Origin: Robiginitomaculum sp.
GTDB taxonomy: Bacteria; Pseudomonadota; Alphaproteobacteria; Caulobacterales; Maricaulaceae
DNA length: 64,000 bases
Direction: 5' to 3'
Assembly (NCBI GenBank): GCA_016763315.1
Contig: JAESTZ010000043.1
Span: 1 to 64,000 of the forward strand
Positions within the stretch are counted from its first letter, which is position 1. The number at the start of each line of letters is the position of its first letter. The notes beneath the pieces are model-generated. The model saw only the letters and a program-made list of their open reading frames with translations, was not told where the DNA came from and searched no databases. This document shows, piece after piece, positions 27,164 through 62,099 of the stretch. Position numbers and translations under genes: made by a program.

Positions 27164-27262
27164 CCATCGACCCAAAAGTGGTTACCGGTTTTTGGATAAG
27201 TTGATGGAAAGCAAAGGGTTATATGTTCCAAATACTGTATAATTCAGTGTTTGGAACATATA
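27164..27262. repeat. Two-hairpin intergenic element, overlapping the glnE end
   Basis: Hairpin 2 (27164-27207): CCATCGACCCAAAAGTGG and CCGGTTTTTGGATAAG plus TTGATGG. Hairpin 1 (27220-27262): arms TATATGTTCCAAATACTG and CAGTGTTTGGAACATATA, 18 bp with one mismatch, loop TATAATT. Hairpin 1 overlaps the last six codons of glnE, so it is both coding and structural and could end the glnE transcript. Confidence 0.75.
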
Positions 27263-30090
27263 TGATCCAGAATTGTACTTACCTGTTGTCGGCTGGTTGT
27301 AATTTCTTTTTCCAATTGTCGAAAGGAGTTGGCTTTGGTGCTGCTGACAATAGTTTGCCGCAGTCTTTTGGGTATTTCTTCGGCAGCACCAATACGTCCT
27401 ACTGCCATATTGGTTATTTGCAAAATCGTATGATAAAGTCGATGGGCTTTTAACAATTGTTCGAATTGTCGATTGTCGAGCAATCCGGTTTCTACGATCT
27501 TGTTTTGTTGCGAAAAGCCTTGGAAAAAGGATTTAAAATCACCATTTCTTGGTGACAGTAAAGAAATAGCTTGCATAACGAATTCCAGTTCGGTCAAACC
27601 GCCGGAGCCGTTTTTTATATCCCATAATCCACGGCTTGGTTTTTCGCTATGCAGAAGTTTGCGCATTTTAGAGATATCGCTGCGAATTTTTGGGTGTTCC
27701 ACGAAATCAGAAATAATACGCCGGCACATCTGTTGTGCTTGGTTGGCGAATTGCTTGTTGGAAGCAGAAATTATTTGCGCTCGGCTTAATGCCTGAAACT
27801 CCCAAGTCCTGGCATCTCGTCGATAATAATTCAAAAATGAATTTGTCTCTACAGCTATTGGCCCTGATTGTCCGGAGGGACGCAAACGCATATCCACTTC
27901 GTACAATAATCCTTCTTCTGTTGGTGCAGATAATGCGCTGATCAAGCGTCTTGTAAAACGCGCAGCCCAAACGTCTGCGGGCGGAACTGGTGGAGTGTTT
28001 TTTGTTCCGGTAACAGGGCGATAAATTACCATGATATCCAGATCTGACCCGGGCATCATCTCGAAGCTTCCCAGCTTACCAAAGGCCAAAACAGCCCAGT
28101 CTGCCGGCGATTTTTTGCTCTTGTCGGTGAGCTGTTTTTCAATTTTCTGGGCAAGCCCATCGATTGTCGTTACCGCGAGGGCGGAACAGGTCTGGGCGAT
28201 TATTTCTGGGTTTGCATTACCGGTTAATAGCTCGGCTCCGATGTTGAACATAGCTTCTTGAACGCTTCTTCTGGCGATGTTCATTGCTTGCTCGAGGTCA
28301 TCTGCTTCGGCAATGTCGTGGCGTAAAATTTTTGCTAGATCGTCACGGCTATCATCAATCAGCAAGGCTTCTAGGATGTTCGGGCGTTTAGTCAGAACCA
28401 CTCCTAACTTCGGAGCCATTTGGAATATATCGACTAAACGGGTTAATAAGCCCGGACTGTTGGCAAATAGTGACAAAATTTGCACGCCGGCTGGCAAAGC
28501 TTCAAAAAACTGGGCAAAACTGTTAAATGCGGCATCAGGATCTGGAGTTTTTGCAAGCGAGTGGATAATTTCAGGTGCCAGAGCGGCCAGTAACCGCCTT
28601 GAACGTTCGCTACGAGTGGCTTTAATGTGGCCGGACATCCAGATACGCATACGTGACAGAATTTCATTGGCATTTGAAAAACCGGCTTGCTTTAGCATTG
28701 TTATTGCAGACGGGTGATTTTCAAAATTTGATAAATGCAGGGCATCTTTTGATTTTTTCGAGGCGTCTTTAGCAAAAAAACCTTTCGTCAAAGATGCAAT
28801 TTCAGAAGTGCAATCAACCAGACTTTTTTCAAATTCTTTTTCGTTCCTAAACCCGAGTAACTGTTGGAAGTTTTGTCGCTGTTGGGGGCAATCGGGAATT
28901 ACATGGGTTTGACGATCATTTACCATTTGCAAAGCGTGTTCAACGCGACGCAAAAATGTGTAGTTTTTGATCATATTACTGGAAGTTGTTCCTAGAATTA
29001 AACCTGCATCCGACAATGAAACAAGTGCGCTGATAGTGTCTTTTTCTCGTAGTTCCGGTTTGCGACCACCATGAATAAGCTGTAGGGTTTGCGCGAAAAG
29101 CTCAATCTCACGAATGCCGCCAATTCCTAGTTTTACATTGTATCCGGGTTTTGCAGGTTGCGGTTGATTTTTACCAAATAACACTTGTTGACGTATTTGG
29201 TGTATGTCTTCTATGGCGGCAAAGTCGAGGTTTCTACGCCAGATAAAAGGCTCCATTGAACTGATGAAGTCTTCTCCGGCATGCACGTCCGCCGCAATAA
29301 CTCTAGCTTTTATCCATGCGGCTCTTTCCCATGTTTGACCAACGCTCTCATAATAAACAAGTGCCGCATCAGTTGACAAAACAATAGGTGTTGATGATGG
29401 GTCAGGACGTAAACGCAGATCAACACGAAATACATAACCAAATTCGGATACATCGCTTAAGCATTTAGTGATCTGCCTGGCCAAGCGGATAAATACTTGC
29501 AGATCAATTTCTATTTCGCTGGAAACTTGGTTTCGTTGGAAGAAAAACGCCAGGTCAACGTCACTGGAATAATTAAGCTCGCAGCCGCCAAGCTTGCCAA
29601 ATGCAATGATAAAGAAGCCGCTTTGCGCAAGGCTCGGTAAAGGGTTTTTGTTTTGCTCACGAGCTGCTTGCCAGCAAAATTCCGCAGTAATTCGGATAGT
29701 TTCATCAGCAAATTTAGATAGGTTGTCGGTAATTTTGCCTGTGTTCCACACCCCACAAATATCTAGTAATGCCAAAGATAAATGATATTTTGTTTTAACC
29801 TGCCGGATTGATTTAGCAAATTCTGCTTGATTGCGAGTAGTTATTTGTTGTAGCTCTTGTATTAGATCTTTCATTACTTTGTCAGGGTTCGAGCTAAACA
29901 GCTTTTTCACGTGCCCCTGATGATTGTTCAGTAATTTTGTCAGATACGGTGAGTTGGTAATTATAGCTGTTAGTATTTGTTCTAAATTGGAATTGCCGGC
30001 GGACAATGATTTTGCCAGTTCCTGTTGGTCACTGCTGCCTCCTAAAGAAGGGGTTCGGCTAATAGCTGATATGAAATTTGAATCGCTCAC
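27244..30090 (-). CDS. glnE: Bifunctional glutamine synthetase adenylyltransferase/deadenylase
   Basis: Adjusts glutamine synthetase activity to nitrogen state by attaching and removing AMP, under control of PII. The 948 residues show two nucleotidyltransferase domains, with GKLGGCELNYSSDVDLAFF in the N-terminal half (around 170-190) and GKLGSFEMMPGSDLDIMVIY in the C-terminal half (around 670-690), joined by helical GlnD-type regulatory segments (GGIREIELFAQTLQL; GSGGLTELEFVMQAISLL). Length is normal. The start is GTG at 30090 (MSDSNFI). Its 3' end lies inside a strong hairpin (27220-27262). Confidence 0.95.
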   Translation of the reverse strand: MSDSNFISAISRTPSLGGSSDQQELAKSLSAGNSNLEQILTAIITNSPYLTKLLNNHQGHVKKLFSSNPDKVMKDLIQELQQITTRNQAEFAKSIRQVKTKYHLSLALLDICGVWNTGKITDNLSKFADETIRITAEFCWQAAREQNKNPLPSLAQSGFFIIAFGKLGGCELNYSSDVDLAFFFQRNQVSSEIEIDLQVFIRLARQITKCLSDVSEFGYVFRVDLRLRPDPSSTPIVLSTDAALVYYESVGQTWERAAWIKARVIAADVHAGEDFISSMEPFIWRRNLDFAAIEDIHQIRQQVLFGKNQPQPAKPGYNVKLGIGGIREIELFAQTLQLIHGGRKPELREKDTISALVSLSDAGLILGTTSSNMIKNYTFLRRVEHALQMVNDRQTHVIPDCPQQRQNFQQLLGFRNEKEFEKSLVDCTSEIASLTKGFFAKDASKKSKDALHLSNFENHPSAITMLKQAGFSNANEILSRMRIWMSGHIKATRSERSRRLLAALAPEIIHSLAKTPDPDAAFNSFAQFFEALPAGVQILSLFANSPGLLTRLVDIFQMAPKLGVVLTKRPNILEALLIDDSRDDLAKILRHDIAEADDLEQAMNIARRSVQEAMFNIGAELLTGNANPEIIAQTCSALAVTTIDGLAQKIEKQLTDKSKKSPADWAVLAFGKLGSFEMMPGSDLDIMVIYRPVTGTKNTPPVPPADVWAARFTRRLISALSAPTEEGLLYEVDMRLRPSGQSGPIAVETNSFLNYYRRDARTWEFQALSRAQIISASNKQFANQAQQMCRRIISDFVEHPKIRSDISKMRKLLHSEKPSRGLWDIKNGSGGLTELEFVMQAISLLSPRNGDFKSFFQGFSQQNKIVETGLLDNRQFEQLLKAHRLYHTILQITNMAVGRIGAAEEIPKRLRQTIVSSTKANSFRQLEKEITTSRQQVSTILDHICSKH

Positions 30091-30279
30091 GTGATAACCT
30101 GTATCATAAAACCGGAAACTATTATGAGCAAAAATTCATAATAATGTGGCATTATGCGCATTGACGGGGGAAAGCTCAAACAATATCATTTTGTCGGGCT
30201 GTGGAAACTAAAATAGTTTCGATGGTATTTAGAACGGTTGCGTAAAAACCGTTACACAATAATGTCATTGGAGACAAAA

Positions 30280-61093: not shown

Positions 61094-61967
61094 TTTTGGT
61101 TCCAGTGTTTCTGCTTAAAGCAAAAGCAATAAACGCTAGTCCGATCATCCACATAGGTGCAGAATAAACCATACCTCGGGTGAAACCAAATATTAGCTCT
61201 GCGTCCGGCTCGCGGACATTTTCGACCAAGGTGCGAAACACTCCGTACCCAGTAAGGAATATTCCAGCAGTTAGTCCCGGTTTGGCCAAGGAGCGAAAAT
61301 AATGCGTAGCCACTCGCAAGATCAAAAACAATACCAGACCTTCTAATATTGCTTCGTATAATGGACTGGGGTGGCGGGTGATTGCGCCGCCTGATGGGTC
61401 ACATGGAAATGACATCGCCATTGGCCCGTCCCAAGGTCGGCCATATAATTCACCGTTTATCAAGTTTGCCAGACGCACAAGCCCTAAACCGATCGGAGCA
61501 ACCGGCGCAATCGCATCAGCCAGGCGCAATAATGGTATCTGCTTGCGCCATGCCACATAAATAACAGCCAGTGACACCCCGATCATGCCGCCATGAAATG
61601 ACATGCCGCCATTCCAAGTTTTTAGTATCTGTATCGGTGTTGCGAACATCGCTGGATCATAAAGCAGAACATAGCCTAGTCTTCCGCCGACAATCACGCC
61701 CAATGTTGCCCAAAAAAGCATGTCTTCGGTGGTCGAAATTTTGATTGGCGATTTGTCTTTTTTTCCTTTTGCGCTCCACAAAGAGTTATTTTTTATCAAC
61801 CGGTGAAAATAGACGGCTCCTAAAATAAGTCCAAGCAGATATCCAATAGAGTACCAGCGAAGGGAAATGGGTCCAAAAATATGAAAAATCACCGGGCTAA
61901 AGCCGGGAATTGGTGAACAATTATGCACAGTTTCTTGAGTTGTCTGTAAAAGAGAGAGAATTATCAT
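61086..61967 (-). CDS. lgt: Prolipoprotein diacylglyceryl transferase
   Basis: Inner-membrane enzyme that adds diacylglycerol to the lipobox cysteine of prelipoproteins such as those encoded in this window. The 293 residues have seven hydrophobic segments and the family blocks ISLRWYSIGYLLG, GGRLGYVLLYDP, HGGMIGV, ARLANLINGELYGRP (arginines essential in the family) and HPSPLYEAILEG. The ATG at 61967 is chosen; the frame extends 12 codons upstream into the leader near the hairpin-1 repeat. Confidence 0.94.
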   Translation of the reverse strand: MIILSLLQTTQETVHNCSPIPGFSPVIFHIFGPISLRWYSIGYLLGLILGAVYFHRLIKNNSLWSAKGKKDKSPIKISTTEDMLFWATLGVIVGGRLGYVLLYDPAMFATPIQILKTWNGGMSFHGGMIGVSLAVIYVAWRKQIPLLRLADAIAPVAPIGLGLVRLANLINGELYGRPWDGPMAMSFPCDPSGGAITRHPSPLYEAILEGLVLFLILRVATHYFRSLAKPGLTAGIFLTGYGVFRTLVENVREPDAELIFGFTRGMVYSAPMWMIGLAFIAFALSRNTGTKNA

Positions 61968-62002
61968 GGCTGATCCATTGCGAATTACGTCAACATTGTC
62001 CA

Positions 62003-62099
62003 TATATACTCAAAATACTCAATTGGGCAGTGTTTTGAATATAATTTTCTCTGTTGCCCATCAATTTATCTAAAACGGCGCCAACTTTTTGGCTTGATG
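62003..62099. repeat. Two-hairpin intergenic element between lgt and ubiK
   Basis: Hairpin 1 (62003-62043): TATACTCAAAATACT and AGTGTTTTGAATATA. Hairpin 2 (62058-62099): CCATCAATTTATC-TAAAACG and CAACTTTTTGGCTTGATG. It is followed by TAATATAATA. Same order and spacing as at 55879. Confidence 0.7.

Follow-up and report, generated by a model that had tools for sequence, protein, structure and literature searches.

The CIR repeat of Caulobacter and Brucella is described, in the parts of the review PMC2229807 drawn on here, as an intergenic unit of ~110 bp with two inverted repeats, a linker between them and TA termini; in the same parts its target duplication is entered as '?', and more information on CIR movement is said to be needed. 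Bru-RS1 and Bru-RS2 of Brucella measure 103-105 bp according to the excerpt of PMC2267715 used here, and an association of Bru-RS with IS711 is given in that of PMC2266754. Here, we analysed a stretch of 64,000 nucleotides from Robiginitomaculum sp. (NCBI GenBank assembly GCA_016763315.1, contig JAESTZ010000043.1, positions 1 to 64,000, forward strand), hereafter the window; NCBI taxonomy places this genus in the Maricaulales, Alphaproteobacteria. The window carries, at four places, a composite of ~105 bp made of hairpin 1 (H1), a T-rich linker, hairpin 2 (H2) and a terminal GAGTATA, which is very likely a non-autonomous mobile DNA element of the CIR-like alphaproteobacterial kind.

Judged by the review's description, the composite shares with CIR a length near 110 bp, two inverted repeats with a linker, terminal TA, a mostly intergenic location, multiple copies and an alphaproteobacterial host. 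It differs in that 102 of 110 H1 loops of the Robiginitomaculum lineage lack the GANTC motif, in that TA fits as a duplicated target at 7 of 14 sites where the same parts of PMC2229807 place a question mark, and in that cargo in the H2 apex and H2-only units occur here, neither of which those parts mention. Since the GANTC feature failed, we call the element a GANTC-poor variant of the CIR-like kind and not CIR. By description, its layout is probably also that of Bru-RS and RIME. Bru-RS, likewise compared by description, has in common the length, the palindromic make-up, the mostly intergenic position and the reception of other insertions, although the inserting unit is reported to be an insertion sequence there and is a small hairpin here. 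RIME of Rhizobium, said to go back to Osteras et al. in 1995, reportedly has a two-palindrome anatomy, and the composite of a relative in the same genus (G001) matches rhizobial plasmids, an indirect likeness that does not involve the published RIME sequences. Among the matches listed in the literature on RIME, Bru-RS, CIR, Caulobacterales repeats and Robiginitomaculum, none describes the version of this lineage. Relatives of the element are likely to be known already, and the occupied and empty sites with a likely TA target are what is added here.

Structure of the composite and its copies in the window

The consensus of 25 copies from the window's own genome (the host) reads TATACTCAAAACACTGAATTAAACAGTnTTTTGAGTATA, the T-rich linker and CCATCAACTTATCCAAAAACCGGTnnCCACTTTTTGGGTCGATGG, followed by AGTATA. 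Its left end is TATACTC and its right end GAGTATA, 5'TA3' is present at the termini of the element, and each hairpin pairs with itself in predicted folds. These copies, including those at 27157, 55879 and 62005 of the window, served to train a covariance model (R1) on a structure drawn by hand from the consensus; a general H2 model is termed R2. A reading made from the sequence only had reported a two-hairpin composite in four copies, and R1 indeed matches all four places, next to one H1-only and one H2-only relic. The copies in the window are as follows (ORF, open reading frame; G009, a sister species).

27157-27260 (-): full composite (R1 106.9 bits; alignment; fold)
55879-55980 (+): full composite (R1 98.2 bits); the site is empty in G009
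62005-62107 (+): full composite (R1 85.0 bits)
26165-26328 (-): composite with a second hairpin (type X, CGCAATCC..GGATTGC arms) in the H2 apex (R1 52.5 bits)
19966-20113 (+): H2 with no recognisable H1, the apex being a type-Y insert (GTCCTCAAAAGCC..GATAGGGC) (R1 50.8 bits)
50718-50829 (-): H1, linker and first bases of H2, truncated in ORF 49917-50804 (R1 39.1 bits)
11-74 (+): H2 hairpin of another subfamily with a CTCTAA end (R2 60.5 bits)
52902-52962 (-): H2 hairpin of another subfamily with a CTAGAG end; plus-strand core AAAGTGTGAAGCGGTTTT (R2 45.0 bits)

Several details of the sequence-only reading changed with these models. The copy it placed at 26172 is a composite as claimed, and its H2 apex additionally carries a second hairpin of ~60 nt. 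The 'solo hairpin 2' at 20018 does lack H1 but is not solo, as its apex carries a different insert of ~50 nt; similarly, H1 is present in the 'solo hairpin 1' at 50787, together with the linker and the first H2 bases. The hairpins of other subfamilies at 11-74 and 52902-52962 had been overlooked. In the copy at 27157, H1 (~27222-27260), the linker and H2 (~27163-27207) are followed by the terminus GGGGTATAT, and the H1 arms depart from the consensus TATGTTCCAAA/TTTGGAACATA yet retain their pairing. At 55879, the two strands fold with z-scores of -4.7 and -5.5; the value is -3.8 at 27157, and only -1.9 at 62005, where 9 of 200 shuffles fold equally well. A search of the window for RNA families at the gathering threshold gave no match.

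Copy number and distribution

The host assembly comprises 2.52 Mb in 122 contigs and is 92% complete; the window is its contig 15. In a survey of 41 genomes with stricter filters, the R1 matches (E ≤ 0.01) numbered 80 for the host, and 54 and 27 for the two sister species G009 and G016, respectively; each of the 15 remaining same-genus genomes had 0-7. The few R1 matches in these low-copy genomes have other arms wherever inspected. The genome-wide covariance-model search suggested in the sequence-only reading thus recovers further copies with paired changes, full composites among them. Some of the 80 host matches are second hits on tandem copies or opposite-strand echoes; the working host set consists of 79 places, with weak and partial copies included, after removal of L033, L034:665 and L152:1505 (82 to 79) ahead of the site comparison. 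With R2 (E ≤ 0.001; 25 genomes, at most 150 candidates per genome scored), 118 matches were obtained in the host, 72 in G009, 60 in G014, 56 in G006, 28 in G016, 23 in G001 and 115 in G032, which belongs to another family, as well as 0-5 in the remaining genomes of the genus. Both surveys therefore demonstrate that the copy number is high in some species and low in neighbouring ones.

Among named genomes, exact H2 matches were found only in the Robiginitomaculum assemblies NORP30 and NORP334 (28 stretches), in a search that may omit records of the window's own genome. Layout and core (AAAACCGGTnnCCACTTTT) recur in other alphaproteobacteria, where the arms differ in sequence and still pair. The G001 composite matches 29 records from plasmids of Rhizobium, Sinorhizobium meliloti, Ochrobactrum, Bartonella and Asticcacaulis, 14 of which cover at least 80% of its length at 72-77% identity; five plasmid composites (Asticcacaulis, S. 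meliloti, two Rhizobium and Ochrobactrum) were aligned. The G032 composite had no match among plasmids, and an H2 pattern had none in viral contigs.

Occupied and empty sites

In the compared stretches, G009 is collinear with the host at mostly 80-90% identity, and presence or absence was called from our own reading of the alignments. Both flanks of 24 of the 79 host copies lie in G009 stretches. The element is absent from G009 at 17 of these sites and present in both genomes at 5, among them L143/L193, where the H2 arms differ, and L019/L282; at 62005 G009 has H1 without most of H2, and 50718 is unclear. Full composites are among the absent copies, as are cargo-bearing ones (L133, L136; cargo in the H2 apex) and H2-only units (L022, L038, L039:11609, L138, L139, L150), and these last support the earlier observation that the parts also occur separately. 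In the reverse direction, all four G009 copies in two stretches of ~11 kb are absent from the host. When G009 copies were compared with host loci that had been picked for their elements, 4 of 46 could be paired, three of them shared and one (L167/L038) rearranged.

Two of these loci have features of their own. L167 of G009 is a full composite, and the host locus L038 has an apparent degraded H1 and a nearby inverted lone H2. L019 of the host and L282 of G009 occupy the same TATA site in opposite orientation, which may reflect either in-place inversion or two insertions at one site.

The target was examined by a scripted, ungapped test at 14 sites, in which the bases of the left TATA kept by the empty site were counted. 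Two bases are the best fit at L013, L068, L133, L136 and the G009 sites B, C and D, with identities of 0.73-0.93, and TA itself is visible at L013, L068, L136, C and D. With a 2-bp duplication as the best fit at half of the sites, the element conforms in this respect to a miniature inverted-repeat transposable element (MITE), which has a target-site duplication.

Proposed mobilization

In the mechanism that we propose, a trans-acting enzyme would recognise the hairpins together with the core ACCGGTnnCCAC, and the element would be inserted at TA with duplication of these 2 bp. If the hairpins are the recognition structure, their arms could change only in pairs. Other small hairpins may in addition insert preferentially into the H2 apex. 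A stronger version, in which an enzyme new to small repeats reads the hairpin shape and a short core and ignores the arm sequence, so that arms are freely rewritten in each species and the H2 apex becomes a nesting site of sometimes two levels, seems to us rather unlikely.

A number of observations weigh against insertion of a mobile element at TA. In the target test, L026 (1 base, with a gapped TATA by eye) and L043 (0 bases) disagree with a 2-bp duplication, the results for L015 (2 or 4) and window 55879 (0 or 2) hinge on the placement of the right end, and L007, L030 and the G009 site A are not scorable. Polarity, i.e. gain and not precise loss, would have to be assumed, because precise loss leaves identical empty sites; the flanks of G016 at two window sites reach only 67-72% in alignment, and these spacers were left out of the outgroup polarity. 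Furthermore, the predicted folds show no pairing between the left and right ends of the element, in contrast to an ordinary MITE. Neither the host nor G016 has a match (E ≤ 0.001) to Y1_Tnp, DDE_3 or DDE_Tnp_1, the only transposase families sought, in assemblies of 92% (host, G000), 93% (G016) and 73% (G009) completeness, and therefore no mobilizer is named. Finally, L004 (host, contig C59) and L168 (G009, contig C20), a pair shared by the two genomes, are 99% identical across 3,074 bp, whereas the other compared stretches of the two genomes mostly differ by 10-20%, so that recent exchange or a misassigned contig may be involved at this locus.

The transposase search also bears on the possibility that the element is a repetitive extragenic palindrome (REP) or REPIN mobilised by a REP-associated transposase (RAYT), as the sequence-only reading had considered. 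The palindromes are small and mostly intergenic, and H2 forms tandem runs of two to three units with a period of 51 or 55 bp in the host, G009 and G016, some of them cut by contig ends. The parts of PMC3733652 drawn on here describe CGTC and GTAG REPs, with palindromes of 20-40 bp, and report REPs inserted within other palindromes; type-Z apex inserts resemble CGTC REPs by eye. The element itself, at ~105 bp, has neither the REP size nor the GTAG or CGTC tag in its consensus, and the RAYT link fell away with 0 Y1_Tnp matches in the host genome. Taken together, we consider a REP or REPIN origin exceedingly improbable. The only Y1_Tnp match of G009 is partial (G009:C3:14039-14272), and a type-X copy (C3:15262) is located ~1 kb away.

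Covariation of the hairpin arms

Paired compensatory changes between the arms had been read from the four window copies as a sign of a selected RNA or DNA structure. In the 25 host copies, both sides change at 10 of the 16 H1 pairs, and the whole structure contains 24 double-changed cells compared with 9.1 ± 2.3 after shuffling (0/500 shuffles), which confirms the paired changes; a measure based on further pair types gave a weaker signal (25/500 shuffles). Across 18 H2 sequences from 13 genomes, double changes occur at 11 of 14 pairs, with 58 double-changed cells against 16.4 ± 3.4 (0/500 shuffles) and far lower values in all slid controls. These 18 sequences came from a structure model, the selection of which may favour pairing, and therefore copies chosen by the exact core alone were also checked. 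Of 289 genomes of the class, 11 (one of them the host) contain the exact core, and none contains the backward control. The ten genomes besides the host hold 31 such places; for 26 of these, the mean arm complementarity is 7.0, against 3.9 for arms combined across genomes. A score of 8 is reached by 10 of the 26, against 1.2% of mixed pairs, and 4 of the 26 pair poorly (scores 3-5). The paired arms are thus maintained.

Template switching between hairpin arms during replication can copy one arm onto the other, and the covariation might accordingly be mutational and arise with no selection, which is compatible with mobility. This explanation agrees with the H1 arms, which are often perfect repeats, and with H2 arms that vary by species yet pair. 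On the other side, the core and the linker stay recognisable across species while the arms vary, and it therefore appears that something recognises the element; we regard purely mutational covariation as a possible but doubtful account. Since a hairpin required for mobility and rewriting by template switching predict the same pattern, covariation alone is no proof of RNA function. Of the earlier interpretation, the maintained pairing holds, and the element is an example in which strong covariation need not imply a functional RNA.

Gene context

In the window, the copies neighbour glnE, an EF-hand protein, lgt, thpR, a TonB-receptor-like protein and a sigma factor; the copy at 55879 sits in the divergent spacer between a weakly YccA-like ORF and thpR, that at 62005 in the spacer between lgt and the next gene. 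With mechanically called ORFs, the 79 host copies are distributed over divergent (25), tandem (34) and convergent (7) spacers, 7 overlap an ORF, several at its edge, and 6 lie at contig edges. Compared with the expectation from spacer length (baseline: the window and 40 G009 stretches), the 66 placed copies give 25 against 18.3 divergent, 34 against 32.5 tandem and 7 against 15.2 convergent (p = 0.03; the p values of this and the orientation test below are uncorrected). The preference among spacer types is weak.

A selected cis-acting RNA, such as an attenuator, a terminator or an mRNA stabiliser, would explain the covariation by its function. In line with this, the folding z-scores lie between -3.8 and -7.4 in 5 of 6 strands, and the element and the genes are on opposite strands in 24 of 34 tandem gene pairs (p = 0.024), as if one orientation disturbs transcription. 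However, 17 of the 24 comparable sites are empty in the sister species, and the gene association is therefore not conserved. Moreover, the element is found in both orientations, and the excess of divergent over convergent spacers (25 and 7) is ill-suited to a terminator. The bias in spacer and orientation would be explained equally well by insertion at the least harmful positions and by regulatory use. A regulatory role is not supported, and we consider a selected cis-acting RNA quite unlikely.

Beside the copies at 26165 and 27157, the stretch 26376-27083 (-) encodes an EF-hand-like protein, with lanmodulin as the best NCBIfam match (4e-18; 65.7 bits with a cut-off of 135); its product is a possible metal-binding protein.

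GANTC in the H1 loop

According to the parts of the review by Delihas (PMC2229807) drawn on here, Chen and Shapiro proposed for CIR that a hairpin exposes a GANTC site for methylation by CcrM. Eleven composites from four other genomes were examined, and 8 of the 9 that pass the arm test do have GANTC between the H1 arms. In the lineage of the window, the motif is present in only 5 of 56 H1 loops of the host, 3 of 41 of G009 and 0 of 13 of G016, with the loop span varying slightly between the two counts. The denominators are the arm-test passers among 79 host copies, 44 G009 copies (46 less the excluded L200 and L201) and 14 of the 27 G016 matches. This scarcity occurs despite a CcrM-like gene in the host, whose 363-aa product has CcrM as its best NCBIfam match (E = 6.8e-184; 610.6 bits, below the model cut-off of 830). 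Of the five plasmid composites, that of Asticcacaulis alone has GANTC in the H1 loop; those of S. meliloti, the two Rhizobium and Ochrobactrum lack it there, so that the Robiginitomaculum lineage is not alone in this.

The window as a whole contains 64 GANTC, compared with 245 expected from base composition. Among control motifs of the same make-up, CTNAG is equally rare (64), and the other six occur 154 to 428 times. Since GANTC is avoided across the window, its loss from the loops may follow the genome; the excerpt of PMC3973325 used here states that Alphaproteobacteria avoid GANTC, yet with a relative excess in intergenic DNA. Combined, these results disfavour the CcrM-linked explanation for this lineage, and that H1 exists to expose a methylation site is very improbable. 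With sites that are occupied in one sister genome and empty in the other, a probable TA target and a lineage that multiplied with few GANTC, mobility becomes directly testable and separable from the CcrM hypothesis.

Nesting in the H2 apex

Of 66 host copies, 21 have more than 14 nt between the H2 arms, as do 11 of the 44 in G009. Every such H2 core was counted as an insert, although L128 (17 nt) and L202 (25 nt) are perhaps no insertions. By eye, the host inserts fall into type X (11), type Y (7), type Z (2) and one short case, where type X is an H2-like hairpin of another subfamily and type Z is CGTC-REP-like; L250 and L282 are apparently nested twice. The motifs of types X and Z were found elsewhere too, whereas type Y occurs only in or beside H2 arms, at 7 of 7 host loci, which had been chosen for their elements, and at 1 of 1 in ~800 kb of G009.

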